Source: Verrucomicrobiota bacterium (GTDB lineage: Bacteria; Verrucomicrobiota; Verrucomicrobiia; Limisphaerales; AV2). From it: 18,495 nucleotides of DNA. Of this stretch, positions 4,948-18,482 are shown piece after piece. The notes under the pieces were generated by a model. It had not been told where the DNA came from and made no database searches. It saw nothing but the letters and a program-made list of their open reading frames with translations. Position 1 is the first letter of the stretch; each line of letters begins with the position of its first letter. The stretch covers positions 1 to 18,495 of the forward strand of contig QHPA01000063.1 in assembly GCA_003218935.1 (NCBI GenBank), given 5' to 3'. The position numbers and the translations under genes are program-made.

Positions 4948-5622
4948 CGGAGCAGTCAATGGCTGACCGTTGTGTTTTGGTCCAAGACTCAACAGAAAGG
5001 GAACAGCCTTCTTCGCCCATTCCTCCGCCGTCGGATAAGCCGACGCCGAACCGCCGAAGCAGCTTTGCAGCATGTCGGTGTTGATGATGCCGGGATTCAG
5101 CGGGATGGCGGCCATGCCCGCGGGCAATTCCTGCGCCAGCGCCTGGGTGAGTCCTTCAATCGCCCATTTCGTCGCGCAATATGGGGCGACTTCGGCATCG
5201 GTCGAACGGCCCCAGCCGGAGCTAAAGTTCACAATCACACCGCTCCCGCGCTCGATCATCGCCGGAACGAAATGGCGAATCACATTCACGACGCCTTTGA
5301 GGTTGACGTCGACGACTTGGTCGAATTCCTCGGCACTGACTTTCCATAACGGCGCATTTTTGTTGATGATCGCGGCGTTGTTCAGCAGCAGGTCCGGTGG
5401 GCCCGGCGTCTTGAGCAAGCGTTTCGCCCACGCCTTGACCTTTTCATCCGAGGCGACGTCCACAGCATCAAAGTCGTGTGGCTTGTCAAAACGTCCGCGC
5501 AATTCCGAGATGGACTTTGCGGAACGACCGCAGCCAAGCACGGTATGGCCGAGCCGGATGAATTCCTGCGCCATCGCGCGTCCCAGCCCGCGCGACACGC
5601 CGGTAATCACCACGCGCTTCAT
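4945..5622 (-). CDS. SDR-family oxidoreductase
   Basis: This is a classical short-chain dehydrogenase/reductase, 225 aa, expected to be a soluble NAD(P)(H)-dependent oxidoreductase. Visible motifs: the TGVSRGLG nucleotide-binding loop at 7-14; NNAA at 81-84 where most members have NNAG; VDVNLKG near 105-110; and the catalytic Ser135, Tyr148 and Lys152 (YCATK). The C-terminus GPKHNGQPLTAP is a typical SDR ending. The start at 5622 is chosen because ATGA overlaps the stop of the upstream glycosyltransferase, which implies translational coupling, and because it puts the Rossmann strand at the N-terminus. An in-frame ATG at 5637 is the alternative. The stop codon lies inside a palindromic repeat. 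The substrate cannot be inferred. Confidence 0.9.
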   Translation of the reverse strand: MKRVVITGVSRGLGRAMAQEFIRLGHTVLGCGRSAKSISELRGRFDKPHDFDAVDVASDEKVKAWAKRLLKTPGPPDLLLNNAAIINKNAPLWKVSAEEFDQVVDVNLKGVVNVIRHFVPAMIERGSGVIVNFSSGWGRSTDAEVAPYCATKWAIEGLTQALAQELPAGMAAIPLNPGIINTDMLQSCFGGSASAYPTAEEWAKKAVPFLLSLGPKHNGQPLTAP

Positions 5623-6656
5623 TGCCGGTTTCGCCATCGTTTCAATCGCCAGTAGAACATCCCGAAGAAAATCGCGCCGCAACCGTTGACGCCCATCGTA
5701 TAGCCAAGTTTGTAAAACACCCCGTTGTTTTTCTCCGCGTAAATCGCCACGTCATGGCCGATGAGCAGGTTTGGCATCGACGCCGGCATGAGCGCGCCCT
5801 GGACCAGGCCGCGAACGAAACCTGCCGGGTGATGACTGCGGCTCAGTTGTTGGCCGACCCGGTTCAGTATCCAGCCGATGACGAAAGCGAGGAGAAGGAT
5901 GGAGACCAGGCGCGTGACCAAATTCCATCGCGAAGGCGCTGGTGCGGAAACGTTGATGGTAGATGCTGGCATCGGGGAGAGCATGTTTTTGACCTGCTCC
6001 GTCGGGCAAGCAGAATTTAGTCGCGTATCGCGCACCGGTCGGATTTTGCTCTGCTCGTTCCGGTAAATCACCTGCACCGGCACGAACTCGACCTTCTGGC
6101 CGGCGGCGATGAATTTGCAGAGCAGTTCGGACTCGATTTCAAAGTGGTCGGCGAGCAGGTGAACCTGCGCCCACGTCTCCAGCCGCATCAGCCGAAAACC
6201 GCATTGCGTGTCGGGCAACGTGTGCCCGGTCAGTCGCGAAATCCGGTCACTCATCCAGCGGTTCACCCGGCGTCGTACCCACGGCATGCCGTCTGGATTC
6301 GTCATTCGATTGCCCACGATCAGTTCGGCCCCGGTTTTTTCGGCGCACGCCAGAAACGCAGTAATGTCCTCCGGGGCGTGCTGCCCGTCGCCGTCCATCG
6401 ATAATGCCCAGGTGAACCCGCGTTCGAGCGCGCGACTCCAACCGGCCCCCAAAGCCGCGCCTTTGCCCCGCCGTTTCGCGTGGCGAATCACCTCCGCGCC
6501 ACATCCAGCTGCCAGTTCGGATGTGCCATCGTTGGAACCATCGTCCACCACGATCACAGCCGCCACATACTTGCGCACCGCCTGGACGAGCGGCTCGATG
6601 GTCGCCGCTTCGTTCAGGCAGGGAATCACGACGGCGCATTGCGACGGCAAGTTCAT
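5619..6656 (-). CDS. Family 2 glycosyltransferase with an extra C-terminal membrane domain
   Basis: The first ~210 residues are a GT-A glycosyltransferase of the polyprenyl-phosphate sugar transferase type. In ATG numbering they show VIPCLNEA (10-17), VVDDGSNDGT (36-45), the metal-binding DGDGQH (88-93), DTQCGFRLM (149-157) and the ending YRNEQSKIRPVRDT. Such enzymes normally stop shortly after this. Here the frame continues for about 135 residues with a membrane segment (VTRLVSILLLAFVIGWIL), a conserved-looking LMPASMPNLLIGHDVAIYAE and a second hydrophobic segment (GVNGCGAIFFGMFYW). The ATG at 6656 is preferred over a TTG two codons upstream, giving 345 aa. It overlaps the downstream SDR by four bases. 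The extension may be a genuine fusion or two genes joined by loss of a stop; it could anchor the enzyme in the inner membrane. Confidence 0.9.
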   Translation of the reverse strand: MNLPSQCAVVIPCLNEAATIEPLVQAVRKYVAAVIVVDDGSNDGTSELAAGCGAEVIRHAKRRGKGAALGAGWSRALERGFTWALSMDGDGQHAPEDITAFLACAEKTGAELIVGNRMTNPDGMPWVRRRVNRWMSDRISRLTGHTLPDTQCGFRLMRLETWAQVHLLADHFEIESELLCKFIAAGQKVEFVPVQVIYRNEQSKIRPVRDTRLNSACPTEQVKNMLSPMPASTINVSAPAPSRWNLVTRLVSILLLAFVIGWILNRVGQQLSRSHHPAGFVRGLVQGALMPASMPNLLIGHDVAIYAEKNNGVFYKLGYTMGVNGCGAIFFGMFYWRLKRWRNRQ

Positions 6657-7004
6657 GCCCAAACGCTAGGCCAAGTAACGTTGTGGCCAAGATAAATTTG
6701 CTTCCGGGATTTGCGCCATCGAAGTGCGGCTGGTCTCATGCCGCAGCCGCTTCGGAATTCCTCGCCACCCACTGCCGCCTCCAAAGTCGCGGCGGGCTGA
6801 GGGGATAGCCGGTGCTCCGTGCAACAACGTCTCTACCCATGCACGGTGGGGCGAGACTCCGTCGAGCCCTGACCTCCGTTGGATACAAAATTAGGGCTCG
6901 ACGGAGTCTCGCCCCACCATGCATGGAGAGGCCTCGCCCCACGAAACTGTGCCACCGGCAGAAATTGGTTTGCGCTCCGTCCAGAGACGGTTTTAACTGA
7001 GCCG
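6657..7004. other. Intergenic region containing hairpin element copy A
   Basis: This is the gap between the divergent glycosyltransferase and radical SAM genes. Its clearest content is the long hairpin at 6837-6926, followed at 6933-6942 by CTCGCCCCAC, a partial copy of one arm end. The radical SAM frame is open through part of this region, but its first TTG lies in the hairpin loop and is unlikely to be a start. No convincing promoter was seen. Confidence 0.5.
6837..6926. repeat. Long hairpin repeat element, copy A
   Basis: Two arms of 34 bases (6837-6870 and 6893-6926) are inverted copies with one mismatch, around a 22-base loop. The arm core is GGTGGGGCGAGACTCCGTCG followed by AGCCCT. Two further copies lie at 15011-15116 and 18374-18482. 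The copies differ in loop length and sequence while the arms are kept, which points to selection on, or mobility of, the arms. Confidence 0.9.
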
Positions 7005-8051
7005 GTGATTGACGAGCCGTTTTTCCCAACGACCGACATCCTGAAATCCCGCGACCAAGCTCAACATGACTTTCACGAGCGCGCCGCGCGCGTTGCCGTC
7101 GAAACGTTCGGGCGCCAGGTCTTTGTTCGAGCGGTAGTCGAGGTCTCCAATTTTTGCCGCGAAAATTGTTCCTACTGCGGCATGCGGCGCGACAACCGCG
7201 GTCTGGCCCGACACCGCGCCCGACTCGATCAACTGGCGGAATTGCTGGTCCACCATCGACCTGCCAGCGTCACCGATGTCAATCTCCAGGCAGGCGAAGA
7301 CCCGCTCATCGTTCGCGAGGTCGTTTTGCCGCTCATCAAAATCCTGCGCCACGAAACATCAATCGGCCTCAGCGTCTGTCTGGGAACATTGAATCGCTCG
7401 CTCTACGGGGCGCTGAGATCCGCTGGCGCATCGACTTACATCATTAAATTCGAAGTCGCCGATCCCGAACTTTACGCGCAGATGGAGGCGCCCGGCACAT
7501 TTGACGAACGCGTTGAGCACATCCGCTTGCTGGCGGCCACAGGCTGGAATGTCAGTTCCGGTTTCATCGCCGGTTTGCCCGGCGAAACTGAAGGCGCGTT
7601 GCTCGCCAATTTCTCCCTCGCGCGCAGGTTGCCGCTCGAAGGTTGCAGCGTCAGCCCCTTTATTCCGGGCGAAGCCACGCCGTTTGCGAACGCGCCGACC
7701 GCCGACATTGATTTGACTTTGAACTGCATGGCCGCCCTGCGCCTGATGCGACCGCGCTGGGTGATTCCCGCCGTCAGCGCGCTCAATCTTGCCGGGCCGG
7801 GCGGCGGATATCGCCGCGGCTTGCGCACGGGCGCGAACCTGGTCACGATCAATCTCACTCCGCCCGGTCTGCGCGAGGATTACGTCCTCTACCGGCGCGA
7901 CCGCTTCATCATGACCGAGGAACGCATTCTCGCCGCCATCGAAGCTGAAGGGCTGAAGGCGTCGAAGCAAAGCCTGGCGGATTATTACCGGCAGAAAAAC
8001 GCGCTCACAACCAGCCCGCCGCGTTCCCGGCTTGAAAGGGTCGCTGTTTGA
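7005..8051 (+). CDS. HydE-like radical SAM enzyme (BioB/HydE/PylB superfamily)
   Basis: This is a radical S-adenosylmethionine enzyme with the CX3CX2C 4Fe-4S motif in NFCRENCSYCGMRRDN (cysteines 51, 55, 58). Text around it matches HydE rather than biotin synthase: EVSNFC, CGMRRDN, LQAGEDP, GFIAGLPGET (compare HydE VGLPGQT) and SPFIPGEATPFAN. Using the GTG at 7005 gives 348 aa, the size I recall for Thermotoga maritima HydE, with a normal distance to the cluster motif. The open frame reaches back to a TTG in a hairpin loop, rejected as a start. HydE helps build the [FeFe]-hydrogenase H-cluster, but no HydF, HydG or hydrogenase is here, and the second C-terminal cysteine cluster of some HydEs is absent. 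It converges on the methyltransferase gene with three bases between stops. The true reaction is unknown. Confidence 0.88.
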   Translation: MIDEPFFPTTDILKSRDQAQHDFHERAARVAVETFGRQVFVRAVVEVSNFCRENCSYCGMRRDNRGLARHRARLDQLAELLVHHRPASVTDVNLQAGEDPLIVREVVLPLIKILRHETSIGLSVCLGTLNRSLYGALRSAGASTYIIKFEVADPELYAQMEAPGTFDERVEHIRLLAATGWNVSSGFIAGLPGETEGALLANFSLARRLPLEGCSVSPFIPGEATPFANAPTADIDLTLNCMAALRLMRPRWVIPAVSALNLAGPGGGYRRGLRTGANLVTINLTPPGLREDYVLYRRDRFIMTEERILAAIEAEGLKASKQSLADYYRQKNALTTSPPRSRLERVAV

Positions 8052-8054
8052 ACT

Positions 8055-8822
8055 TCAGCTTTTTGCGCCCAGATATTCGCTGAGAATGGTAGCCCTGGTT
8101 CTGCGCTCGACGGACTTGAATCCCGCGCCGCACAACGCCGTGAGGATGGCTGCCGGCGGAACGCATTCGGCAATCGTTGCCCAATAGTATTCCACGAGCC
8201 TCACTGAGTCGCGGCGGCGAGTGGCCAGCCGCGTCAGAAGCGGCAGCAGGCGTTGCATGTAAAAACGCATCAGCGCAAAGCCGGCTCGCGACGAGGGACG
8301 GGTAATTTCGAGAATCAACACTCTGCCGCGCGCGCGCAACACACGATGGAACTCGGTGAAAAGCTGGCTCAAGTCCTCGACATGCCTCAGGGCGTAACCC
8401 ATGACGACGAAATCAAACGCCGCGTCCTGAAATGGCAGTGATTCGCCGAGACCCTGCGCCAGTTGAATGCCGTGCAGCTTCTGATTTTCTTCCAGCATCC
8501 CTCCGCTCGGATCGAGGCCGATCAAATCACGCGGGGCAATTCCCAAAGCGAGCGCAGCCTGCGCGACCAGACCGGTGCCGGTGGCCACGTCGAGCACGCG
8601 CATGCCCGGCGTCACGCCTGCCTGCCGCAGAGCGCCCCGGCGATATCGGCGGTCGGTGCCGAACGACATCGCACCACTCATCCAATTGTAATCGCGCGCG
8701 GCGCGATCAAACAAATCGGCGACAAACCGGGCCCGCTGCGCCGGCGCGGGATAAAATGCGGTGAGCGTTCGGTGCGGGACCAGTTTCGACGTCGCTTCGA
8801 CCTGCTTTTGCGCGGCGCTCAT
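8055..8822 (-). CDS. UbiE/COQ5-type class I SAM methyltransferase
   Basis: This 255 aa cytoplasmic methyltransferase has the class I fold. Motif I, VLDVATGTGL, is at 76-85; the acidic end of strand 2, GLDPSGGML, is near 102-110; GESLPFQDAAFD is near 126-137; and ALRHVEDL follows. The N-terminal VADLFDRAARDYNWMSG strongly resembles the UbiE/MenG opening (FDR.A..YD.MN). UbiE proteins C-methylate quinone precursors, but related enzymes act in secondary metabolism. Its start overlaps the stop of the upstream halogenase-family gene by ATGA, so the two are probably translated together and act on the same product. It is less likely to be the housekeeping menaquinone enzyme given that partnership, though this cannot be excluded. 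Confidence 0.88.
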   Translation of the reverse strand: MSAAQKQVEATSKLVPHRTLTAFYPAPAQRARFVADLFDRAARDYNWMSGAMSFGTDRRYRRGALRQAGVTPGMRVLDVATGTGLVAQAALALGIAPRDLIGLDPSGGMLEENQKLHGIQLAQGLGESLPFQDAAFDFVVMGYALRHVEDLSQLFTEFHRVLRARGRVLILEITRPSSRAGFALMRFYMQRLLPLLTRLATRRRDSVRLVEYYWATIAECVPPAAILTALCGAGFKSVERRTRATILSEYLGAKS

Positions 8823-10393
8823 CGCTGCGGTGTGACACGGCGGACCGGGACCATCAGCGCGTCAGGTTGATGCGCCGCCGCCGGCCGTTGCCACCAGCTT
8901 CGCCATCCCTCCGTCATTTCCAGTCGGAGCCATCCGGCCAGCGCGCCGAAGATCGGCAACACGCTCGCACGTGCAAAAGTGTAGCCTTTGAACATGAAGC
9001 GGCGATTGGCATTTTGCTTTTGGAGTCGGGCGCCCTCGCGCCGCAAGCGGGCGATCTGCGCAAAGCGACGATTGTAAGTCCGCATCAGATGAAAGAATGG
9101 CCCGGAGAACGGTGAGGTGAAGACCGATTCGCACAGGGCGATCTTCCCGCGCTTGAACGGCTGCGAAGCCACGCCGAAGTAGTAAAGTCCGAGGTCCAGC
9201 AAAAAGGCAAGCCGCACCAGATCGTATTCCCCGAGATACTCGTATTTGTCCTTGTAAATCGCGGTGAACCAGCGCTCGTAACTGCGCGCAAAGTCGCGAT
9301 TGTGCTTCGCCACCAGCGGCGCGATATCTTCGCCGCGTTGCTGCGACAAAATCAACTTCACCGTCGAGCTCACCGTGAACGAAATCCAGTCCATGCCCGG
9401 ACTGTAGAGCGGATCGAGGAACCCGCTCGCGTCGCCGACGAGCGCGAAACCATCGCCCGCGACCGTCCTGCTGGAATAGGGCAGGTTCTTGCGCCAATGG
9501 ACGTCGCCCTCGCGCCACTGGGCGTCAGCCAGAATCTCGCGGGCCACCGGATGCTGCATGAGGAAGTTTTTCAACCGTTCGCCGGGCCAACCGCCTTCCG
9601 GCCATTGCACGCGCCGCTGATCGAACACGACGCCGACGCTCACGTCGCCGCCCTTGAGCGGAATACACCACGCCCACCAGCCGTCGCCGGTAAAATGGTT
9701 GGTGGCCGTAGCGCGAATGCCGTGGCAGGCCATCGCCCAATGGGGAAATTTCTCGGCGAGTTCGAGTCCATCCAAATCTTTCACGCCGGTCCAGCGCGCC
9801 CAGACGGCGGTGGTCGGATGGGCGGTGTTCGGCTGCCGCCAGCCTTCCTGTCGCGCCAGCAACGCGGCCACACCGGAAGCGTCCACCACCCAGCGCGCCT
9901 GCACTGAGTCAGTCCGCTCCTGCCGGCGCACCTCGACCGTTTGCAGTTCACTCGCGGACAGATGAACCTTTCCCACACTTGCGGGTCGCCAGAGTTCCGC
10001 CCCCAGCGCGCAGGCCCGCCGCAGAACCTCCTCGTCGAGCACCGCGCGATCCACTTGAAAGGCCGGCACGCGAGAGAGATAACGCCCGCCAATCTCACTG
10101 CAATCGGCCAGTGACTTCGTCCGTTCGTTAAAGAACCAAAAGCGCATCCCTTGTTTCACCAGATGCGCTTCGTTCAAGTGCTGCGTCAGTCCGAGAACAC
10201 GCGTCAGGAAGTAACCGCTGACCTCCACCGTCGCTTCGCCGACGCGTCGGGTGAACGCCGCCGATTTTTCGAGGATCAGCACCCGCAGCTTCGGATGCTC
10301 GCGCAACAACAGGAAGGCCGTCGCCGCTCCCGACAAGGCCCCGCCGATAATGATGGCATCGTAAACCCGCGCGTCCTGGGCCGGTGCGTTCAC
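8819..10393 (-). CDS. Flavin-dependent halogenase-family FAD oxidoreductase
   Basis: This 524 aa FAD protein belongs to the tryptophan-halogenase-like superfamily. It has the N-terminal dinucleotide-binding strand IIIGGALSGAA (14-24), VGEATV (51-56) and a lysine at residue 80 in LVKQGMRFWF, where flavin halogenases place the catalytic lysine. It also has WAWCIP at 240-245, an exact match to the halogenase WxWxIP signature, and GDASGFLDPLYSPG at 320-333 (second FAD contact). The C-terminal ~150 residues are family-specific, with hydrophobic stretches. The start is GTG at 10393, 12 bases after the stop of the secreted-protein gene; it ends in an ATGA overlap with the methyltransferase. Many relatives are reductases or monooxygenases rather than halogenases, so halogenation is a motif-based prediction. 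A flavin reductase partner is not in the window. Confidence 0.88.
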   Translation of the reverse strand: MNAPAQDARVYDAIIIGGALSGAATAFLLLREHPKLRVLILEKSAAFTRRVGEATVEVSGYFLTRVLGLTQHLNEAHLVKQGMRFWFFNERTKSLADCSEIGGRYLSRVPAFQVDRAVLDEEVLRRACALGAELWRPASVGKVHLSASELQTVEVRRQERTDSVQARWVVDASGVAALLARQEGWRQPNTAHPTTAVWARWTGVKDLDGLELAEKFPHWAMACHGIRATATNHFTGDGWWAWCIPLKGGDVSVGVVFDQRRVQWPEGGWPGERLKNFLMQHPVAREILADAQWREGDVHWRKNLPYSSRTVAGDGFALVGDASGFLDPLYSPGMDWISFTVSSTVKLILSQQRGEDIAPLVAKHNRDFARSYERWFTAIYKDKYEYLGEYDLVRLAFLLDLGLYYFGVASQPFKRGKIALCESVFTSPFSGPFFHLMRTYNRRFAQIARLRREGARLQKQNANRRFMFKGYTFARASVLPIFGALAGWLRLEMTEGWRSWWQRPAAAHQPDALMVPVRRVTPQR

Positions 10394-10405
10394 AGAACGT
10401 CAGGG

Positions 10406-10996
10406 TTAATCGACTCGCCCCGGTTTCAAATCGCTCGTCACTACTTTGCCGTCTTCGGCGGAGATGTGGATTTCACCGATGTTGACCGTCTCACTCGGCT
10501 TGCGGATTTTGGTCGCCCACAGTTTGACCTTCCAGACCGGCTGGTCGCCCTCGCCGCGTTCCAGCCTCATTTCCGTGTTTGTCAGGGTAACGTTTTTGAG
10601 GAGCGGATCGCTTTTGGCGATTTGAATGGCCTTGTCCGAGTCGATTTTCAACTTCTCCCTGGCCAACTCGCGGTGCGAGCGGCTAATCGGCTCAAGAATG
10701 CGAGCCGGACGCTTGACGGAGACTTTCGTGCCGGCGGCGAATTTGACTTCCGTGGCTTTGGCGGTTGCATCGGGGTCGTAATAAACGACATACCAGATGT
10801 TCGGCATCAGAGTGCCGATCGATTTTTCCGAACGAATCTGCACCACGCGGCCTTTAGCCTCTTCACCGACGTGACGGTTGCCTTCCTTGATCAGTTCAAA
10901 CGCCGTCGGCTCCGCCGCCAACGACGCTATCTGGCTCAGCCCGCCGGCAAGCAGCAGGGCAGCCAGCCATTGTCCACCCGACAATTTCATTTTCAT
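10406..10996 (-). CDS. Exported protein of unknown function, possibly PepSY-like
   Basis: This 196 aa protein starts MKMKLSGGQW and has a clear signal peptide with a hydrophobic core LAALLLAGGLSQIASLA, probably cut near residue 27-28. The mature part is mixed alpha/beta: AFELIKEGNRHVGEEAKGRVVQIRSEKS and PNIWYVVYYDPDATAKATEVKF, then DKAIQIAKSDPLLKNVTLTNTEMRLE, VWKVKLWATKI and IHISAEDGKVVTSDL. The last third has the 'helix, strand, VWKVKLW, strand, GKVV' order seen in PepSY domains; that assignment is tentative. It should be periplasmic or envelope-associated. It is the first gene of a probable operon with the halogenase-family protein and methyltransferase. Aryl polyene clusters also carry exported proteins that handle lipid products, so a transport or chaperone role is possible but unproven. 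Confidence 0.75.
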   Translation of the reverse strand: MKMKLSGGQWLAALLLAGGLSQIASLAAEPTAFELIKEGNRHVGEEAKGRVVQIRSEKSIGTLMPNIWYVVYYDPDATAKATEVKFAAGTKVSVKRPARILEPISRSHRELAREKLKIDSDKAIQIAKSDPLLKNVTLTNTEMRLERGEGDQPVWKVKLWATKIRKPSETVNIGEIHISAEDGKVVTSDLKPGRVD

Positions 10997-11002
10997 GCGC
11001 CG

Positions 11003-11031
11003 AATCTAGGCAACGCACGCATGGCTGACAA
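11003..11031 (-). promoter_or_regulatory. Candidate promoter of the minus-strand operon, probably leaderless
   Basis: On the minus strand, TTGTCA (11031-11026, 5 of 6 to consensus) and TAGATT (11008-11003, 4 of 6) are separated by exactly 17 bases. The -10 ends only six bases before the ATG at 10996, so transcription would begin at or next to the start codon. The absence of any Shine-Dalgarno upstream of that ATG fits a leaderless transcript. Confidence 0.45.
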
Positions 11032-11051
11032 CCTTGAAAACCGGCGGGCAT

Positions 11052-11078
11052 TTGACTTGTACTGAGCAGGTTTATTAA
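11052..11078 (+). promoter_or_regulatory. Weak candidate promoter for the ketosynthase operon
   Basis: TTGACT (11052-11057) and TATTAA (11073-11078) lie upstream of the ketosynthase GTG at 11107, but the spacer is only 15 bases. It is the best rightward candidate in the divergent region at 10997-11106, which would serve both operons. Confidence 0.25.
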
Positions 11079-11106
11079 GGTTCCGCCAGACAATCAAACT
11101 GTCGCT

Positions 11107-12348
11107 GTGCTCTTTCCGCTCAAACAACCTCCCGACCCGCCGCTCCGCGTCGTTGTCACCGGCGCGGGCATCGTTACTTCTTTAGGCGTGGGGTGGCAAT
11201 CGAACGCCGCAGGGTTTCGTGACGGACACACAGTGATCCGTCCGGTCACGCTGTTTGATGTCTCGCGCCAGCGCGTAAAGGTCGCGGGAGAAGCAGCACT
11301 GCCCTCTGCTCTGCCCGACACGCGTTTGCCTGCAAAACGGACTCGCCGACTCGACCGCGCCACAAAACTTCTAGTGCTCGCGGCGCACGAAGCATGGCGG
11401 CAATCCGACTGGGAGCCTTCAGACAATCTGCCGGTCGTGCTCGCCACGACCAGCGGCGGCATGAGCCTGGGTCAGGATTACTACCGCCAGGCTATCCGGG
11501 CCCCCAATTCACACCGATGCCAACCGGCGCGCGCGCTGCATTACCAGGCGCAACGCCAGGCGCTCGACCTGACCGACGCGTTCGGATTCAGCGGCCCCAT
11601 TACCATCATCGCCAATGCCTGCGCTTCCGGCGCCAACGCCGTCGGACATGCGTGGGAATTGTTGCGGCGCGGTCATGCGGAACGCGTTTTGACGGGCGGC
11701 TATGATGCGCTCAGTCAACTTGTCTTCGCCGGCTTCGATTCGTTGCAAGCGTTGTCACCGACGCGATGCCGCCCGTTCGACGCGCAGCGTGACGGATTGG
11801 CGCTCGGTGAAGGCGCCGCAATCCTCGCGCTGGAAACGCTCCAGCACGCGCAACGCCGTGGCGCAAAAATCCTTGGCGAAATGGTCGGCTACGGCGCCGC
11901 CACGGACGCGCATCACCTGACTCAGCCGCAGCCGCAAGGCGACGTCGCGTTGGCGACCATGACCGCCGCCTGCCAATCCGCCGGCCTGTCCCCGAAGCAA
12001 ATCGGCTACCTCAACGCGCATGGAACCGGCACACTGCTCAACGACAGCGCGGAAGCCCTGGGCATCAATCGCTGGGCCGGAGAATATGCCGCAAAAATTC
12101 CGGTCAGTTCAACCAAATCGAGCATCGGCCATTTGCTCGGCGCGGCCGGCGCGGTCGAAGTGGTGATCTGCCTGATGGCTCTTGGCGAACAGTGGTTGCC
12201 CCCGACTTCGACGCTCGAATCACCCGACCCGCTGTGTCAGTTTCCGCTCGTGCGGAAACCAACTTCCGCCAGGCTCGAATATGCGTTAACCAACTCGTTC
12301 GGCTTCGGCGGCGCAAATGCGACGGTTGTTTTACGGAGGTGGGCATGA
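11107..12348 (+). CDS. Beta-ketoacyl-ACP synthase (FabF/KSalpha-like, catalytically complete)
   Basis: This is a condensing enzyme of the thiolase fold, 413 aa, the usual FabF length. All active-site elements are present: nucleophile Cys172 in IANACASGANAVGHAW, His305 in LNAHGTGTLLND, the Lys/His pair in STKSSIGHLLGAAGAVE (His342) and the glycine-rich end TNSFGFGGANATVVL. The N-terminus VVVTGAGIVTSLGVGW is the family opening. The start is GTG at 11107, without a Shine-Dalgarno. It is the first gene of a plus-strand set with a catalytically dead homologue, a ketoreductase and an acyl carrier protein. That arrangement parallels KSalpha/KSbeta pairs of type II polyketide and aryl polyene systems, and argues for a specialised rather than housekeeping FabF. 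Confidence 0.95.
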   Translation: MLFPLKQPPDPPLRVVVTGAGIVTSLGVGWQSNAAGFRDGHTVIRPVTLFDVSRQRVKVAGEAALPSALPDTRLPAKRTRRLDRATKLLVLAAHEAWRQSDWEPSDNLPVVLATTSGGMSLGQDYYRQAIRAPNSHRCQPARALHYQAQRQALDLTDAFGFSGPITIIANACASGANAVGHAWELLRRGHAERVLTGGYDALSQLVFAGFDSLQALSPTRCRPFDAQRDGLALGEGAAILALETLQHAQRRGAKILGEMVGYGAATDAHHLTQPQPQGDVALATMTAACQSAGLSPKQIGYLNAHGTGTLLNDSAEALGINRWAGEYAAKIPVSSTKSSIGHLLGAAGAVEVVICLMALGEQWLPPTSTLESPDPLCQFPLVRKPTSARLEYALTNSFGFGGANATVVLRRWA

Positions 12349-12360
12349 AAACGATGAGGC

Positions 12361-12489
12361 GGGGAGCGCGCCCGCCACGGGCGCAGTTTTCCGCGCCCTC
12401 GCGGAAAACCTCCAGCGGACCAAAACTTCGCGCGCCAGACAGCGGGACGCGGGGCGCGTCCCGCAACGCCCGGGGCGGGCGTGCTCCCC
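12361..12489. repeat. Nested palindromic element between the two ketosynthase genes
   Basis: The outer arms GGGGAGCGCGCCCGCC (12361-12376) and its inverse (12474-12489) differ at one base. Inside lie two perfect hairpins: GTTTTCCGCG with its complement (12386-12395/12400-12409, 4-base loop) and GCGGGACGCG with its complement (12442-12451/12455-12464, 3-base loop). This fills most of the 222-base gap and would strongly structure the mRNA. No U-tract follows, so it is not a classic terminator. It looks like a REP/BIME-type dispersed element. Confidence 0.8.
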
Positions 12490-12570
12490 AAGTTCCGGTT
12501 TCGGGATGAAAATTCCAAACTTCAAGCTCCAAGCCCCCGTTTCAGCGCGCCACATTCCAAGTTGGCGAAG
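12490..12570. other. Spacer before the ketosynthase-like gene
   Basis: This holds short similar units such as ATTCCAAACTTCAAG and CTCCAAGC (about 12510-12535). A related AT-richer unit, ATTCCAAATTGCAAATC, occurs in the gap before the ketoreductase gene at 13722-13738. No Shine-Dalgarno precedes the ATG at 12571. Confidence 0.35.
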
Positions 12571-13722
12571 ATGAGCACGGTCGAACCAATCCTCGTCCAG
12601 GGCATCGGCGCCGTTTCGCCCGCCGGCTGGGGTGTGCCGGCGTTGCGCGAGGCGCTGGCCAAAGGCGAGCCGCTGCCCGCGAAGGAACTCGCGCGACCGG
12701 GCTGGGCACGTCCGCTGCGAGTGCGAGCCGTCCCGCCGCCTTCATCGCGGCCGGATTTCATCACACACCCGCGGCTGCGTCGCACCAGCCCAGTTACTCA
12801 ATACGCCGTCGCCGCTGCTCTCGAAGCCTTGGGCGACGACGTGGCGCGCGTTGGCAACGGCTCGTTGCGGCTCGGCATCGTTCTCTGCGTCATGACCGGC
12901 TGCGTGAATTATTCGCGCCGATTTTACGACGAAACACTCAACGATCCGGCCACGGCCAGCCCACTTGTTTTTCCCGAAACCGTCTTTAACGCGCCCGCCA
13001 GTCACCTCGCTGCTCTGCTCGGCACGACCGCCATCAACTACACGTTGGTCGGTGACCCGGGCACTTTTCTCCACGGCCTCGCGTTGGCCGCTGATTGGCT
13101 CTTCGGCGAGCGTGTCGATGGCTGCATTGTCATCGGCACCGAGGAGACGGATTGGCTGACCGCCGACGCGTATCGACTGTTCGCGCGCAGAATCGTTCTC
13201 AGCGAAGGGGCCGGAGCGCTTTACTTGCGGCATGCGGAGCAACCCGCCCCCGGCGCCTCCGCGGGGGCGAGCCAGCGTTCGGAAGTGTCGGGTCAGTTCC
13301 CCTCCCAGGAGAGGTCAGGGATGGTTTCGGCCTCTTCGAGTATAACCGGGGCAAACTCAAACAGACCCACCGTTCAACTTTATTGCGTTACCAGCGCGCA
13401 TCTGTTCTCGTGCAAACAAAGCCGCGCCCAGGCGGCGAAACGGATGCGTGCCGAATTGCCTGCGGGAAAACAGAAACATTTGCTGTGCGACGGAATCCAA
13501 AGCCTGGACAACATCGACGCCGAGGAACGGGAAGCATGGCAAAGCTGGCCCGGCGCGCGGTTGTCACTGAAGATGTTCCTGGGCGAAGGTCTGGCCGCAG
13601 CCTCCGCGTGGCAATGCGTCGCGGCCATCGACGCCTTGCGCCAGGGCAAGTATCCGGCAGCAACGGTGAGCGTGCTCGGCTGCAATCAACAGGCTATTGG
13701 CGCGCATTTTGTGATTTTGTGA
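12571..13722 (+). CDS. Ketosynthase-like protein lacking catalytic residues (chain-length-factor-like)
   Basis: This 383 aa protein has a ketosynthase fold: VQGIGAVSPAGWG at the N-terminus, VLSEGAGALYL (209-219, equivalent to the LALGEGAAIL block), and LSLKMFLGEGLAAASAWQCVAAIDAL near the C-terminus. None of the catalytic residues survives. The cysteine block reads YTLVGDPGTFLHG with no Cys; the HGTGT block reads CDGIQSLDN (His to Asp); and the KSSIGH block reads KMFLGE (His to Glu339). This is what KSbeta/chain length factors look like, so it should partner the active ketosynthase encoded upstream. Residues about 223-265 are a low-complexity insert (QPAPGASAGASQRSEVSG...) coded by DNA with two hairpins, probably an in-frame repeat insertion. 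The ATG at 12571 is preferred over an upstream TTG in the palindrome. Confidence 0.85.
   Translation: MSTVEPILVQGIGAVSPAGWGVPALREALAKGEPLPAKELARPGWARPLRVRAVPPPSSRPDFITHPRLRRTSPVTQYAVAAALEALGDDVARVGNGSLRLGIVLCVMTGCVNYSRRFYDETLNDPATASPLVFPETVFNAPASHLAALLGTTAINYTLVGDPGTFLHGLALAADWLFGERVDGCIVIGTEETDWLTADAYRLFARRIVLSEGAGALYLRHAEQPAPGASAGASQRSEVSGQFPSQERSGMVSASSSITGANSNRPTVQLYCVTSAHLFSCKQSRAQAAKRMRAELPAGKQKHLLCDGIQSLDNIDAEEREAWQSWPGARLSLKMFLGEGLAAASAWQCVAAIDALRQGKYPAATVSVLGCNQQAIGAHFVIL
13243..13370. repeat. Repeat-derived insert inside the ketosynthase-like gene
   Basis: Within the coding frame lie a perfect hairpin CGCCCCCG/CGGGGGCG (13245-13252/13262-13269) and a 27-base palindromic stretch at 13298-13324. 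The reverse complement of that stretch begins CCATCCCTGACCTCTCC, nearly identical to the intergenic repeat at 14527-14543. The encoded peptide is Ser/Gly/Ala-rich and sits between conserved ketosynthase blocks. The insert boundaries are approximate. Confidence 0.55.
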
Positions 13723-13759
13723 TTCCAAATTGCAAATCGCCGATCTCAAATCGCCCCGC

Positions 13760-14491
13760 ATGAGTTCCCGCGTCATCTTCGTCACCGGCGCCAACGGCGG
13801 CCTCGGCCAGGCCATTGCCCGCGCGTTCCTCGCCGAATCGCCGGAGAATTTTGTCTGGCTGGGCGTTCGACAGAACCGTGCGCGCGCAGACAGATTGACG
13901 GAGGCATTTCCCGGCCGTTGCAAGTGCCTCGAACTGGATGTCACTCGAGCCGCCGCATGGCAAAAGGCCGTTGCGGACGCGGTGGCCGAACACAAACGGC
14001 TGGATGTCCTCATCAACAACGCCGGCAAACATCACGATGGTTTACTCGCGCAACTTTCATTCAGCGCGTGGCGGGAGGTCCTGGCGACGAACCTCGACGC
14101 TGCCTTTCACGGTTGTCAGGCGGTGTTGCCCGCCATGATTACGCAGCGCGGCGGCCGCATCGTGAACATCGCTTCGCTCAGCGCCCTGCTCGCGCCCGCC
14201 GGCCAGACCAACTACGCCGCCGCCAAAGCAGGCGTGGTTGCCCTCACGCAATCGCTGGCCAAGGAAGTCGCTCGCATCGGCATCACGGTCAACGCGGTCT
14301 GTCCCGGCTACCTGGAAACCGAACCGCTCGCCGCGATGAGTGAAGAGGAACGCAAAGCCGCATTGGCGCGGGTCCCGATGCGGCGCTTTGGCCGCCCGGA
14401 AGAAGTGGCCGCCGCCGTCCGATTTCTGGCTTGTCCCGAAGCCGGTTACATTACAGGCTCAGTGCTGAAAGTGGACGGCGGAATCTACTGA
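13760..14491 (+). CDS. FabG-type 3-oxoacyl-ACP reductase (SDR)
   Basis: This 243 aa classical SDR closely resembles FabG, which reduces 3-oxoacyl-ACP with NADPH. Seen: TGANGGLG at 9-16, LDV near 60, NNAG at 86-89, the catalytic Ser139, Tyr152 and Lys156 (NYAAAK), and Asn111 of the tetrad. The family C-terminus is also present: GRPEEVAAAVRFLACPEAGYITGSVLKVDGGIY. The ATG at 13760 puts the Rossmann strand at the N-terminus; an in-frame TTG at 13730 would add a non-native peptide. It begins 37 bases after the ketosynthase-like gene and precedes the acyl carrier protein. In this setting it probably performs the ketoreduction step of the dedicated pathway encoded here. Confidence 0.93.
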   Translation: MSSRVIFVTGANGGLGQAIARAFLAESPENFVWLGVRQNRARADRLTEAFPGRCKCLELDVTRAAAWQKAVADAVAEHKRLDVLINNAGKHHDGLLAQLSFSAWREVLATNLDAAFHGCQAVLPAMITQRGGRIVNIASLSALLAPAGQTNYAAAKAGVVALTQSLAKEVARIGITVNAVCPGYLETEPLAAMSEEERKAALARVPMRRFGRPEEVAAAVRFLACPEAGYITGSVLKVDGGIY

Positions 14492-14526
14492 TTCCAGTCG
14501 TTTTCAAAATGGTTCGATGCTCTCCG

Positions 14527-14557
14527 CCATCCCTGCCCTCTCCCCAGGGTGGGAGAG
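14527..14557. repeat. Short palindromic repeat upstream of the ACP gene
   Basis: CCATCCCTGCCCTCTCCC begins a unit whose second half pairs with itself: CTCTCCC (14538-14544) and GGGAGAG (14551-14557) around a 6-base loop. An inverted relative occurs inside the ketosynthase-like gene at 13298-13324. It looks like a dispersed REP-type unit rather than a terminator, since no T-run follows. Confidence 0.6.
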
Positions 14558-14603
14558 AATCGGGCGATAAGACGTGAAGCGGAAAACAATTTGGAATTAC
14601 AAA

Positions 14604-14876
14604 ATGGACGACGTCAACACCCTGAAAGGCCGCATCAAGAGCATGCTGGTGGAAAACCTCATGCTGCCGGTGGCGGTGGCGGAAATCAACGATGACCAGC
14701 CGTTGTTCGGTCCCGGGAGCCTCGGCCTCGACTCGGTGGACGCGTTACAACTGGTCGTGGCGCTCGACAAACATTTTGGCCTGAAAATCCCCGACCCGGC
14801 CACAGCGAAAGAAATCCTGCAAAACGTCAGCACCATTGTTTTGGCCGTGCAAAAGAAAATGGCCGGTGCCGTTTGA
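14604..14876 (+). CDS. Acyl carrier protein
   Basis: This 90 aa acidic helical protein carries the 4'-phosphopantetheine attachment site GLDSVDALQL, with Ser44 as the modified residue. The flanking pattern DDQPLFGPGSLGLDSVDALQLVVALDKHFG, with the extra G-P-G-S before the site, is common in ACPs of type II polyketide/aryl-polyene-like sets rather than in the primary fatty-acid AcpP. The ATG at 14604 is preferred over a GTG at 14574, because the extra ten residues would not fit and TGGAA lies 7 bases upstream of the ATG as a weak ribosome-binding site. It ends the plus-strand ketosynthase/ketoreductase set and presumably tethers the growing acyl chain. It needs a phosphopantetheinyl transferase encoded elsewhere. 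Confidence 0.93.
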   Translation: MDDVNTLKGRIKSMLVENLMLPVAVAEINDDQPLFGPGSLGLDSVDALQLVVALDKHFGLKIPDPATAKEILQNVSTIVLAVQKKMAGAV

Positions 14877-15142
14877 TTTGCGCCTGCGGCGGACTCTGGA
14901 GCAGCCCTGGCATTTAATACGCATACATACTTTTTTGCTGACAGGCCGGCAACACTCTGTTATCAACCGCAATCTATAACAACTGTTTCTAAAACCATGA
15001 GGGCCTACCCACGAACCCGGTGGGGCGAGACTCCGTCGAGCCCTGAATTTCTGCCCTCGGAGGTCAGGGCTCGACGGAGTCTCGCCCCACCGTTCATGAT
15101 CCCGTGGCGCGCCAATATGGCGTGCAGCCTACCCATCCCGTC
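14877..15142. other. Intergenic region before the ABC importer, with hairpin copy B
   Basis: The first ~120 bases are AT-richer than the surroundings and contain TATAAC at 14975-14980, a good -10 match without a convincing -35. The rest is occupied by hairpin copy B, so any transcript starting at that -10 would carry the hairpin in its leader. No Shine-Dalgarno is visible. Confidence 0.4.
15011..15116. repeat. Long hairpin repeat element, copy B
   Basis: Perfect 28-base arms at 15019-15046 and 15064-15091 surround a 17-base loop; the arm core is the same GGTGGGGCGAGACTCCGTCG as in copies A and C. Similarity to copy C continues rightward (GTTCATG, TCCC, GCGC, GCCAAT) to about 15116. That stretch covers a GTG at 15104 that would otherwise be the longest start of the binding-protein gene. 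Confidence 0.9.
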
Positions 15143-16279
15143 ATGCGTATGAAAGCGAAGGCGGCCGTCACCGATCTCGTCGCCAAGGTGGCATTGGGCG
15201 CACTGCTCCTGACGGGCTGCAACAAGAGTTCGGAGAACACCAGCGGCGGCCCGGCTAAAGTCCGGGTGGGGTATATCGGCCTGACCTGCGAGGCGCCGAT
15301 TTTCACCGCTGTCGAAAAGGGCTTCTTCAAGGAAGAGGGCCTGGACGTCACGCTCGTCAAATGCGAGTGGGCGAATTACAAGGACGTGCTGGCGCTGGGC
15401 GGATTCGACGTAACGCATCACCTGGTCATGTACTTTCTCAAACCCGTCGAACAAGGACTGGACGTGAGGTTCACCGGCGGCATCCATCGCGGCTGTCTGC
15501 GGGTCCAGGCAGCGGCGAAGGGGAATATTCGGTCGATAAAAGATTTGCGCGGCAAGCGCATCGGCGTGCCCGGAATGGGAACGCCGCCGTTCATCTTCGC
15601 CAATCGCGTCCTCGGCGCCAATGGCATCGACCCAAGCAGAGAGATCACCTGGCTCGTGTTCCCGGCCGGCGAACTCGGATTGGCCCTCGACAAAGGAGAG
15701 GTGGACGCAGTGGCGAATTCCGAGCCGATCGGCAGTTTGCTGCTCGCCGACGGCAAGGTCCGCAACATCGCCGACCAGGCGGCGGATGCGCCTTACAAAG
15801 ACGAATATTGCTGCGCCGTGCTGGTGAACGGGAAGTATCTCGCGCGTAACCCAAAGGCGTCTGCGGCCGCCACCCGCGCTCTGCTCAAGGCCGCCAAATG
15901 GGTGGAAGCCAATCCTGCGGCGGCCGCAAGACTGTCGGTTGAGAAGAAGTATCTCGCCTCGACCGTGGAACAAAACACGATCGCGATATCGCACCTGCGC
16001 TACGTTCCGAGCATTTCCGGAGCGGAAGCCGCCGTCAGATTGGCGGCCACTGAAATGCAGAGGGCCGGGATGCTCAACCCCTCCACCGATGTGGTTGGAT
16101 TGGCTGGCCGCGCATTCGTCCATCTGGACGGCGTTTCGGATGAATGGCTTGAGTCGCTCCAGGTCGAAAAGGTCGTCGGCGGTCAGGCGCCCCCGGACTG
16201 GGACATTCGCCGCTACGCCCAGAACAGCCTGTCGGATCCGTTCTGCTCAGCCTGTCTAATCTTCCCGGCGGCCCGATGA
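15143..16279 (+). CDS. ABC transporter substrate-binding lipoprotein (NitT/TauT, NMT1-like type)
   Basis: This is a periplasmic solute-binding lipoprotein of an importer in the nitrate/sulfonate/taurine class. The signal peptide MRMKAKAAVTDLVAKVALGA ends in the lipobox LLTGC, so Cys26 is the lipidated residue. Mature features are typical: VRVGYIGLTCEAPIFTAVEKGFF, DVTHHLVMYFL, SIKDLRGKRIGVPGMGTPPFIFANRVL, VFPAGELGLALDKGEVDAV. Cysteines in GLTCEAP, IHRGCLR and DEYCCAV, plus a His pair, are unusual for this class and might bind a metal or thiol ligand. The start at 15143 is chosen over GTG 15104 because the latter lies in a repeat and would displace the signal peptide; ATG 15149 is also possible. 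It overlaps the permease start by ATGA. The ligand is unknown. Confidence 0.9.
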   Translation: MRMKAKAAVTDLVAKVALGALLLTGCNKSSENTSGGPAKVRVGYIGLTCEAPIFTAVEKGFFKEEGLDVTLVKCEWANYKDVLALGGFDVTHHLVMYFLKPVEQGLDVRFTGGIHRGCLRVQAAAKGNIRSIKDLRGKRIGVPGMGTPPFIFANRVLGANGIDPSREITWLVFPAGELGLALDKGEVDAVANSEPIGSLLLADGKVRNIADQAADAPYKDEYCCAVLVNGKYLARNPKASAAATRALLKAAKWVEANPAAAARLSVEKKYLASTVEQNTIAISHLRYVPSISGAEAAVRLAATEMQRAGMLNPSTDVVGLAGRAFVHLDGVSDEWLESLQVEKVVGGQAPPDWDIRRYAQNSLSDPFCSACLIFPAAR

Positions 16280-17313
16280 ACACTTCGGCTCAAGATACCC
16301 ACGACGCGGTTCAGATGAGTGAGGAAAAAGTGGCGCGCGCGGGGAGTATCGGCTCGCCGGCTGCATCACGAGCGCGAGCCCGGACTCTCCTGGCCATCCC
16401 GGTGGCGGCATCCGTCGCGCTCGGCGTTCATCTCTTTGTATCCAAAAACCAGCCGGTGCCGGAAACGAATTCCTACTCCGTGTTTCTGGGTATCATTCTC
16501 GGTTCCGCCGGCGTGGCCGCGGTAGCGCAGTCATTCTGGTCACACCTGCGGCGATGGATGCTGCACATGTGCCCGATTATCGCCGCCGCAGTCTGCTTGT
16601 TGTGCTTCTGGGAAGTGATCACTTCGGGTTTGCGATTGCTCCCGCTGCCGTATTTCCCCAGCCCCGCCGCGGTGCTGCAAAGCCTGATCGACGATCGAGG
16701 TATGCTCTTCCACAGCACCTGCAATTCGCTGATCCTGCTGCTCTCCGGTTACCTGCTCGGCCTGGCGGTCGCTGTGGTAACCGGCGTTTCCATCGGCTGG
16801 CTCAACCAGGCGCGGTATTGGGGCATGCCGCTCTTAAAAGTTGTCGGACCGATCCCGGCCACCGCGTGGATTCCGCTGGCGATGGTCCTGTCGCCCGCAC
16901 CCAGGTTCTCCGCCGTCGGCATCATCGCGCTGGCGGTCTGGTTCCCGGTGACGATGCTCACCGCGTCCGGCATTTCCAACACCCGCGCCTCCTACGTCGA
17001 TGTCGCCCGCACGCTGGGCGCCGGGCGAGCGTACCTGATCTTCCGCGTCGCCATTCCGGCTGCCATGCCGAGTATCTTCATCGGTTTGTTCATGGGCCTC
17101 GGGGCGGCGTTCCTGACGCTCGTGGTGGCGGAGACCGTCGGTGTGAAATCCGGGCTCGGCTGGTATGTGGCCTGGGCTCAGGGTTGGGCCGAGTATGGAA
17201 AGGTGTACGCCGCCCTCGTCATCATGGCGGCTTTCTTCTCAACCATCATGACCCTGTTGTTCAAGGTGCGGGACCGCGTGCTGGTTTGGCAGAAGGGAGT
17301 GATCAAGTGGTAG
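16276..17313 (+). CDS. ABC transporter permease (SsuC/TauC-like)
   Basis: This inner-membrane permease has the BPD_transp_1 fold. The conserved core begins near residue 98 with FWEVITSGLRLLPLPYFPSPAAVLQSL, as in SsuC/TauC/NrtB. The EAA loop that docks the ATPase is VDVARTLGAGRAYLIFRVAIPAAMPSIFIGL (241-271), and the C-terminus ends ...RVLVWQKGVIKW, a standard family ending. At 345 aa it is about 80 residues longer than SsuC: residues 37-56 and 66-88 form two extra N-terminal hydrophobic segments. Its start overlaps the binding-protein stop by ATGA and its end overlaps the ATPase start by seven bases, so the three genes form one translationally coupled operon. Confidence 0.93.
   Translation: MNTSAQDTHDAVQMSEEKVARAGSIGSPAASRARARTLLAIPVAASVALGVHLFVSKNQPVPETNSYSVFLGIILGSAGVAAVAQSFWSHLRRWMLHMCPIIAAAVCLLCFWEVITSGLRLLPLPYFPSPAAVLQSLIDDRGMLFHSTCNSLILLLSGYLLGLAVAVVTGVSIGWLNQARYWGMPLLKVVGPIPATAWIPLAMVLSPAPRFSAVGIIALAVWFPVTMLTASGISNTRASYVDVARTLGAGRAYLIFRVAIPAAMPSIFIGLFMGLGAAFLTLVVAETVGVKSGLGWYVAWAQGWAEYGKVYAALVIMAAFFSTIMTLLFKVRDRVLVWQKGVIKW
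17293..17299 (+). promoter_or_regulatory. Shine-Dalgarno AAGGGAG that fixes the ATPase start
   Basis: AAGGGAG lies seven bases upstream of GTG at 17307, inside the end of the permease gene. The ATPase frame is open far upstream, so this site together with the family N-terminus decides the start. Confidence 0.7.
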
Positions 17314-18338: not shown

Positions 18339-18373
18339 AGGTGACCAGCGCGCCGCCCTCACCTTTACCCTGC

Positions 18374-18482
18374 CCATGAATCAGGTGGGGCGAGACCCCG
18401 TCGAGCCCTGATTTCTATTCATTGGAGATCAGGGCTCGACGGAGTCTCGCCCCACCGTTCATGGTCCCAATGCGCTGCCAAT
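18374..18482. repeat. Long hairpin repeat element, copy C
   Basis: The arms at 18374-18412 and 18428-18464 pair with a three-base bulge (TCA at 18381-18383) and one or two mismatches, around a 15-base loop. Similarity to copy B continues to about 18482 with a single-base indel. Copies B and C are in the same orientation and bracket the ABC importer genes. Confidence 0.88.

Follow-up and report, generated by a model that had tools for sequence, protein, structure and literature searches.

What does a HydE-type radical SAM enzyme do beside a ketosynthase operon? This question is raised by an 18,495-nucleotide stretch of a Verrucomicrobiota contig (QHPA01000063.1; hereafter the window), in which a HydE-like gene neighbours genes for a ketosynthase (KS), a catalytically dead, chain-length-factor-like KS (CLF), a ketoreductase (KR) and an acyl carrier protein (ACP). 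A first, sequence-only reading of this DNA had called the locus possibly unassigned. This is correct in part, as clusters that antiSMASH labels 'ladderane' or 'arylpolyene' have been published for Verrucomicrobiota (PMC7298704, PMC8692599, PMC9902471, in the portions of text available). In a literature search that left out preprints and most subscription journals, we found, among the entries listed, no publication pairing a HydE-type radical SAM protein with a ketosynthase, an aryl polyene cluster or a ladderane cluster. We propose that the window carries the core of a cluster whose probable product is an exported lipid of the polyene type. Its HydE-like member points to a role for this protein family other than in hydrogenases, linked to a lipid-type cluster present in 51 of 116 genomes of the order.

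Layout and recurrence of the locus

The eight genes reported between positions 7005 and 14876 are all present at the coordinates first given (Table 1), and their arrangement is not a chance one, since the same set is found again in dozens of genomes. The HydE-like and methyltransferase genes are convergent and 3 bp apart; the exported-protein and KS genes are divergent, with 110 bp between them. Translation from the GTG at 7005 gives a HydE-like protein of 348 aa, comparable to many relatives' ORFs (about 340-365 aa), and an alternative, longer TTG start at 6879 sits within a repeat. The CLF start is the ATG of MSTVEP, inferred from relatives, the longest ORF beginning at 12481.

Table 1. Features of the window and the matches that identify them
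Feature	Position	Strand	Evidence
GT2 glycosyltransferase fused with small membrane protein, single ORF	5619..6662	-	Pfam Glycos_transf_2
HydE-like radical SAM protein, 348 aa	7005..8051	+	TIGR03956, 177.7 bits (cut-off 254.6)
UbiE-family SAM methyltransferase	8055..8822	-	Pfam Ubie_methyltran, 92 bits
Trp-halogenase-family FAD protein, 524 aa, WAWCIPL motif	8819..10393	-	Pfam Trp_halogenase, 61.6 bits (cut-off 21)
Exported protein, 196 aa, without family	10406..10996	-	Orthologues in other clusters
KS, FabF-like, catalytic residues intact	11107..12348	+	TIGR03150, 363 bits (cut-off 493.75)
Dead KS, CLF-like	12571..13722	+	Asp/Asp/Glu replace Cys/His/His
KR, FabG-like	13730..14491	+	NF009466, 226.4 bits (cut-off 222)
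ACP, LDSVD site	14574..14876	+	Pfam PP-binding, 33 bits
NMT1/SsuA-type ABC transporter: binding protein, permease, ATPase	15104..18338	+	Pfam NMT1, BPD_transp_1, ABC_tran

Two entries of Table 1 were absent from the first gene list. One is the GT2 ORF immediately upstream of the HydE-like gene; its two parts are separate ORFs in several relatives, and GT2 adjoins or lies close to the HydE-like gene at L035, L037, L042-L045, L048, L050, L145 and L146. The other is the ABC transporter downstream of the ACP gene. Its binding protein follows the ACP at only four of the 88 mapped loci (the window, L035, L053 and L054), all from one genus, and its part in the cluster is uncertain.

In an alignment with the window genome's own FabF, the KS keeps Cys/His/His where the CLF has Asp, Asp and Glu, and the Gly-Asp of GDPGTF is invariant among 14 aligned CLF sequences. 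KS, dead KS partner, KR and ACP form a single gene run, the arrangement by which aryl-polyene-type loci are recognised. By bit score, the KS is nearer to FabF (1j3n, 296.7 bits) than to 6qsp_A (160.9 bits); with 6qsp as ApeO-ApeC and its chain A as the aryl polyene KS ApeO, the window KS is on these scores not of the ApeO lineage, which counts against the cluster type proposed here. The KR reaches 204.5 bits with the FlxB model (cut-off 340). A stretch FPxTVxNAPAS is common to PDB 9s5h_C and one CLF relative.

Recurrence was assessed in 116 genomes, the window genome included, with cut-offs chosen after viewing gaps in the match lists (E<=1e-10 for the CLF, E<=1e-100 for the HydE-like protein, E<=1e-90 for the AMP-ligase and for the radical SAM family TIGR04072). 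The CLF is found in 51 genomes and the HydE-like gene in 39, one of which (G034) is counted on no more than a 53% match whose place in the tree is not firm; both occur together in 36 (Fisher P=1e-14). After removal of 13 duplicates, 88 loci were mapped with a simple ORF picker, such that a gap (e.g., at the KR) is not proof of absence, and many loci are cut by contig ends. The HydE-like gene occurs on 33 of them, always on the KS strand (33/33) and immediately before the KS in 15. Homologues are thus co-located in other genomes, the absence of which had been named beforehand as counting against the locus, and the HydE-type enzyme, first described as an unusual member, is indeed unusual yet recurrent. 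In 17 of the 36 genomes with both genes, these lie more than 12 kb apart or on different contigs; contig ends may explain some of these cases, but not G053 (336 kb apart). The data support a KS/CLF/KR/ACP locus that resembles those for aryl polyenes and whose neighbourhood is conserved. Very probably, it is the elongation core of an aryl-polyene/ladderane-type reducing type II polyketide/fatty-acid cluster.

Proposed pathway and the place of the HydE-like protein

The E. coli apeA-R aryl polyene clusters combine KS and chain-length factor, KR, dehydratase, ACP, acyl-ACP synthetase, methyltransferase, acyltransferase/glycosyltransferase, RND exporter and LolA (PMC8253772, in the text available). 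Counterparts of these parts are linked in relatives of the window. The window differs by its radical SAM enzyme and halogenase-family flavoprotein, by a KS nearer to FabF than to 6qsp_A, by a UbiE-type methyltransferase and by the lack of an identified aryl starter enzyme among the annotated neighbours. The FASII ('ladderane') clusters of anammox bacteria and Desulfotalea are described, in the available text of Rattray 2009 (PMC2649909), as holding KS paralogues without catalytic residues, a UbiE-related methyltransferase, radical SAM enzymes and an acyl-CoA ligase; one R. baltica KS paralogue has Asp in place of Cys163, which by that description is the replacement seen in the window CLF. By the same description, FASII genes, dead KS, UbiE-related methyltransferase, radical SAM enzyme and ligase are common to both systems, and a CrtI-like enzyme is likewise found at eight of the 88 mapped loci (c17). 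The differences are that the window genome has a HydE-like enzyme and no match (E<=1e-30) to TIGR04072, the B12-radical-SAM family named for ladderane clusters, and that MMPL/LolA export genes are linked in the window's relatives.

We lean towards an explanation in which a polyene-type acyl chain would be made on the dedicated ACP by the elongation core, tailored by the HydE-like protein, lipid-anchored and then sent to the outer membrane. By analogy with the E. coli aryl polyene pathway, an AMP-ligase would load a starter acid, KS/CLF, KR and FabZ would extend it without enoyl reduction, LpxL and GT2 would attach the chain, and MMPL and LolA would move the product. It is highly likely that the HydE-like protein works in this polyene-lipid pathway, and tailoring rather than starter supply seems on balance to be its role. 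Its radical chemistry (C-C, C-H or C-S) may modify the acyl chain or the head group, in parallel with the role that B12-dependent TIGR04072 proteins may have in sister clusters.

The distribution of the two radical SAM families is consistent with such a parallel. Among the 51 CLF genomes, 31 have the HydE-like gene only, 11 TIGR04072 only, five both and four neither (P=8e-5 for anticorrelation, a value that ignores relatedness). The anticorrelation becomes weaker when the count is limited to the 33 genomes of 90% completeness or more (P=0.005), with the curated TIGR04072 cut-off (P=0.001) and with both limits (P=0.01). Clear switches within a family are seen only in f14 and f34, the two genes also coexist on loci L065, L074, L106 and L114, and only six of 17 genomes have the TIGR04072 gene 4.2 kb or less from the CLF; 12 of the 116 genomes have a TIGR04072 protein above cut-off. 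One genome that is 98% complete (G009) carries the CLF and AMP-ligase with neither radical SAM gene, which suggests that the core can do without such enzymes. The apparent exchange offers a handle on the role of radical SAM enzymes in 'ladderane' clusters, which was raised in 2009 and is unproven in later papers, in the text available (PMC2649909, PMC9821293, PMC13142503). More specifically, a B12-independent enzyme of the HydE clade might have replaced the ladderane-type B12-radical SAM protein, closing a carbon ring or forming another C-C bond in a polyene attached to an ACP or a lipid. We consider this improbable; if true, the membranes of these Verrucomicrobiota would contain a cyclised polyene lipid made by an undescribed route.

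The main rival to tailoring, which we judge rather unlikely, is that the HydE-like protein makes the starter by rearranging or cleaving an amino acid in a PylB- or NosL-like radical reaction, the resulting acid being loaded on the ACP by the AMP-ligase. Enzymes with the fold of HydE, PylB, BioB, ThiH and NosL mostly use small molecules, which favours starter supply, and PylB is the nearest fold after HydE to the predicted structure (TM 0.80), with ThiH, MqnE and NosL matching also. In addition, the AMP-ligase gene is found 2-13 kb from the HydE-like gene in G053, G054, G065 and G072, each without a CLF within 12 kb of it, and the annotated neighbour genes match neither a tyrosine ammonia-lyase model nor one for chorismate lyase. 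Against starter supply, the AMP-ligase is kept in 14 of the 15 CLF genomes that lack the HydE-like gene, including G009 with no radical SAM gene of either family.

The flavoprotein and methyltransferase would be optional modifiers of the product. The flavoprotein shares with the CmlS/Trp-halogenase family the Pfam domain, above cut-off, and the WxWxIP motif, which is found at 15 of the 18 distinct orthologue loci among those listed (the exact motif is missing on L058, L064 and L111); it differs from CmlS in reaching only 103 bits with that model (cut-off 900). Halogenation, as its family and motif might suggest, is possible but somewhat doubtful. The methyltransferase scores below cut-off for each of the 25 NCBIfam models listed. 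The exported protein has orthologues in other clusters (alignment of nine sequences) and matches no Pfam or NCBIfam family; its model (pLDDT 79) has no PDB match at E<=0.001. YpmB entries appear only among the weak fold hits (prob 0.82-0.90, TM <0.4), and the protein was left unnamed.

Partner genes and primary fatty acid synthesis

AMP-ligase, dehydratase and exporter genes were sought around the core and are all linked in relatives. Three relatives (L101, L104 and L123) carry the full set on a single locus, namely MMPL-LpxL exporter/acyltransferase, LolA, FabZ, AMP-ligase, GT2, HydE-like protein, KS, CLF, KR and ACP. The ligase-exporter half and the HydE-like gene share one locus at L145-L147, as they do in members of other orders of the class (L180-L182). 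The AMP-ligase occurs in 50 of the 116 genomes (a count that includes fragments in G000 and G002), 45 of which have the CLF. In the window genome, it is represented by a 112-residue piece (69% identity) at the end of contig C182, and MMPL-LpxL-LolA lie on contig C545, unlinked to the window. No cluster FabZ was found in this genome (one 30% match; assembly 82% complete); FabZ is linked in four same-genus genomes and in other relatives.

The cluster of the window genome might thus be a decayed remnant that retained its core and lost its partner genes. The missing FabZ and the fragmentary AMP-ligase would fit, as would a further FAD enzyme, encoded after the ABC genes, whose reading frame is interrupted near 18338 next to a repeat, its counterpart in L053 being an open 489-aa ORF. 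However, the incomplete assembly is split into 546 contigs, both partner pieces are at contig edges, LpxL-LolA-FabZ and parts of MMPL occur together in the four genomes of the same genus, and the eight window genes are all open, making decay very unlikely.

That the locus simply duplicates ordinary fatty acid synthesis is extremely unlikely. Although FabF and FabG are the best family models of the KS and KR, the primary fabG-acpP-fabF set of the window genome is located on a separate contig (C97), and CLF, exporter and ligase are linked to the locus in relatives. The ACP is 33% identical to the genome's own AcpP in a pairwise comparison. Grouping of the KS and ACP with primary FabF and AcpP had been named beforehand as the outcome against a dedicated locus; the KS tree instead places the KS apart from the primary FabF proteins that these genomes also encode (branch support 97/92), and with the catalytic alignment this led us to reject the KS as a primary enzyme. 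For this tree, 21 cluster loci and 16 FabF loci were tried, of which L180, L132 and L207, and L219, respectively, were left out as they had no ORF match above 300 aa; two long branches (fab_L213 and clu_L182) are retained. Judged from its sequences, the core of KS, CLF-like partner, KR and ACP is separate from primary fatty acid synthesis.

Family membership of the HydE-like protein

The HydE-like protein shares with HydE its fold, about 30% identity and the CX3CX2C motif, which is found in 37 of 37 aligned rows. Its AF2 model (pLDDT 92) has HydE as best PDB folds (TM 0.82-0.85). With the PylB model it scores 109 bits (cut-off 348) and with the BioB model TIGR00433 69 bits (cut-off 225).

That the HydE-like protein and the methyltransferase serve biotin synthesis, in the manner of BioB and BioC, is hardly credible. 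Many of the 120 listed relatives are named 'biotin synthase' at source, and a true bioD (162 bits, cut-off 83.3) adjoins the methyltransferase and HydE-like genes at L180, but at this locus only. This reading was rejected, as canonical BioB is already above cut-off in 106 of the 116 genomes, including the window genome (378.7 bits); moreover, the methyltransferase scores 37 bits for BioC (cut-off 185) versus 126 bits for a UbiE model (cut-off 216).

Least credible of all is an [FeFe]-hydrogenase maturase present here by accident: HydE is the best family model and the closest predicted fold, but the protein misses the TIGR03956 equivalog cut-off, no HydG above cut-off accompanies it, and the HydE-like proteins form their own clade, apart from true HydE (100/100), with 25 positions fixed in their alignment that differ from eight HydE rows (family membership checked for three). 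Six other HydE-like proteins score 177.9-201.7 bits with TIGR03956, against 287-518 bits for three relatives from the phylum that we take as true HydE. The best HydG match of the window genome reaches 170 bits (cut-off 312). Six of the 116 genomes have HydG above cut-off, and none of the six belongs to the 39 HydE-like genomes, a non-overlap that is weak by itself (P=0.10); these six hold a separate match with 28-34% identity to the HydE-like protein.

Pedosphaera parvula, which is in culture, has an orthologue of the HydE-like protein (P0095, 69% identity), making tests in a laboratory strain possibly feasible.

HydE-like gene and its ketosynthase neighbours

All eight genes named in the sequence-only reading (HydE-like radical SAM, UbiE-type methyltransferase, Trp-halogenase-family flavoprotein, exported protein, active ketosynthase (KS), dead KS of the chain-length-factor type (CLF), ketoreductase (KR) and ACP) were found in the window as described. 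Apart from the HydE-like gene, they form two divergent runs whose starts lie 110 bp apart; the HydE-like gene is convergent with the left run, 3 bp from it. The pairing of an active with a dead KS also stands, as the first carries Cys/His/His and the second Asp/Asp/Glu.

Our search covered 116 genomes, of which 115 are relatives and one is the genome of the window itself. The CLF was matched in 56 of them at E<=0.001, of which 51 at E<=1e-10, and the HydE-like protein in 39 at E<=1e-100, with a clean split (at most 34% identity in the remaining genomes, among the matches listed). Both co-occur in 36 of the 116 genomes (P=1e-14). A CLF profile scan of the named genomes yielded 280 encoding stretches; the best 80 of these, together with 20 unnamed regions and the window, and minus 13 duplicates, provided 88 mapped loci. 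A neighbourhood comparison of the kind that the sequence-only reading had called for places a HydE-like gene on 33 of these 88 loci, on the KS strand in every case (33/33). It is located immediately 5' of the KS in 15 loci, and is separated from it by the methyltransferase alone in two (L101, L102), by B12-radical SAM genes in four (L065, L074, L106, L114), by three unassigned ORFs in L097, and, in 11 loci including the window, by genes among which is an opposite-strand flavoprotein, mostly with the exported protein. Flavoprotein and methyltransferase both look optional, as the former is absent between HydE-like gene and KS in 22 of the 33 loci and the window-type methyltransferase in 29. The flavoprotein, of the Trp-halogenase family, carries a WAWCIPL motif, whose exact form is missing in 3 of 18 distinct orthologue loci; it is a candidate halogenase, the motif by itself being no proof of halogenation.

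Comparison with HydE and BioB

The HydE-like protein scores 178 bits against the HydE family model (cut-off 254.6), and a 100/100 branch separates 29 HydE-like proteins from six sequences taken as true HydE. The cluster-binding cysteines are invariant in all 37 aligned rows of both types. At 25 other positions, at least 28 of the 29 HydE-like rows share a residue that none of the eight HydE rows has. These differences include TT to VS, M to G and M to T in the barrel, at positions which we take to contact the substrate in HydE. AlphaFold models the barrel with confidence (pLDDT 92); its nearest fold is that of HydE, followed by PylB. HydG is above cut-off in six of the 116 genomes, none of them with a HydE-like gene (this non-overlap alone is not significant, P=0.10), and BioB in 106, including the window's own. 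From these comparisons, the HydE-like protein most likely has another job than HydE or BioB, and its neighbour genes place it in the polyene pathway. A second subclade (L157, L158, L159, L160, L185), which shares about 51-54% identity with the protein of the window, is found without labelled cluster genes nearby; in L157 and L158 it lies near MlaA/VacJ-like genes.

Two radical SAM families

Among the 51 CLF genomes, 31 carry the HydE-like gene only, 11 TIGR04072 only (E<=1e-90), five both, and four neither (G001, G009, G058, G090). Uncorrected for relatedness, this anticorrelation has P=8e-5 over all 51 genomes, and weakens to P=0.005 in the 33 that are at least 90% complete, P=0.001 with the curated cut-off, and P=0.01 with cut-off and completeness limit combined. 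The distance from the TIGR04072 gene to the CLF is at most 4.2 kb in 6 of 17 genomes, and in L046 this gene occupies the slot 5' of the KS. This pattern of gene content suggests that the two enzymes may perform exchangeable or parallel radical chemistry. Paired B12-radical SAM genes, c13 and c11, directly precede the KS in L046, L074, L106, L114, L115, L122 and L125; judging from the L046 pair only, c13 is of TIGR04072 type and c11 HpnJ/BchE-like.

In G001, the place of the HydE-like gene is uncovered because the contig starts within the methyltransferase. The radical step looks like tailoring, as G009 (98% complete) has CLF and ligase but lacks both radical SAM enzymes; starter supply is a real rival for the HydE-like step.

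Cluster type and layout of the pathway

In the tree proposed earlier as a check against primary FabF, a 97/92 branch sets the KS apart from the FabF proteins of the same genomes; the KS is FabF-like rather than of 6qsp type. The sister-cluster radical SAM c13 passes TIGR04072 'rSAM_ladder_B12' (390 bits, cut-off 360). Window-type clusters match the gene list of the E. coli aryl polyene pathway in the available text of PMC8253772, and resemble the anammox FASII clusters, which, in that of PMC2649909, likewise bring radical SAM enzymes and a UbiE-related methyltransferase together with dead KS paralogues. The locus would thus work like an aryl polyene/ladderane-type reducing system, and we file it as a member of neither. 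Surveys of Verrucomicrobiota have already reported clusters that antiSMASH calls 'ladderane' or 'arylpolyene' (PMC7298704, PMC9902471, PMC8692599), their functions being called unknown in the available text of the first two; our literature search, over text available in part, found no paper on a HydE-type enzyme in a cluster of this sort.

Genes that recur in these neighbourhoods encode, besides two B12-radical SAM proteins and a second methyltransferase, an AMP-ligase, a FabZ-like dehydratase, a CrtI-like oxidoreductase, an MMPL-LpxL fusion, LolA, a phosphodiesterase-like protein and a 242-aa protein. The dehydratase and AMP-ligase sought near the locus are linked to it in relatives: MMPL, LolA, FabZ, AMP-ligase, GT2 glycosyltransferase, HydE-like, KS, CLF, KR and ACP genes all share one locus in 3 of 88 cases (L101, L104, L123), and L145, L146 and L147 have MMPL-LpxL-LolA-FabZ-AMP-ligase near the HydE-like gene. 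A phylum-wide sample (387 genomes, the window's own aside) provided HydE-like proteins at 51-56% identity in three genomes of the same class (G193, G372, G380), surrounded by KS/CLF/ACP/ligase/FabZ genes in 3/3, the G380 gene being broken across two frames.

The window's assembly is fragmented (546 contigs, 82% complete), with an AMP-ligase piece at the end of contig C182 and an MMPL-LpxL-LolA set at the start of C545; four same-genus genomes show LolA then FabZ. In this genus, the cluster appears divided among at least three places, one of them in the window. The single GT2/small membrane protein ORF is either a natural fusion or an assembly effect. The three related repeats measure about 90-107 nt, and two of them have arms that are 94-97% complementary; together they look like a REP/MITE-type family, and L054 too has several matches to them.

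Coordinates of minor features in the window and in loci of relatives
Feature	Location	Remark
GT2 + small membrane protein	window 5619-6662	One ORF; separate ORFs in several relatives
Palindromic repeat	window 6837-6926	One of three related
HydE-like start, likely GTG	window 7005	Because the upstream TTG sits within a palindromic repeat
Dead KS	window 12481-13722	Insertion of ~40 residues (255-293), missing in 13 other aligned proteins
Palindromic repeat	window 15004-15110	One of three related
NMT1/SsuA-type ABC transporter	window 15104-18338	3' of ACP; binding protein on 4/88 loci, all of the window's genus (window, L035, L053, L054)
Second FAD enzyme, start	window 18239-18338	GGGPAG motif; continues the ABC ATPase ORF, ends just ahead of repeat
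Palindromic repeat	window 18369-18475	One of three related
Second FAD enzyme	L053 10962-12431	Open 489-aa version
Dethiobiotin synthase, bona fide	L180 11083-11838	Adjoins methyltransferase and HydE-like genes; one genome, same class
c9, conserved 242-aa protein	L071 4598-5326	Without family; 19/88 loci, usually adjoining AMP-ligase
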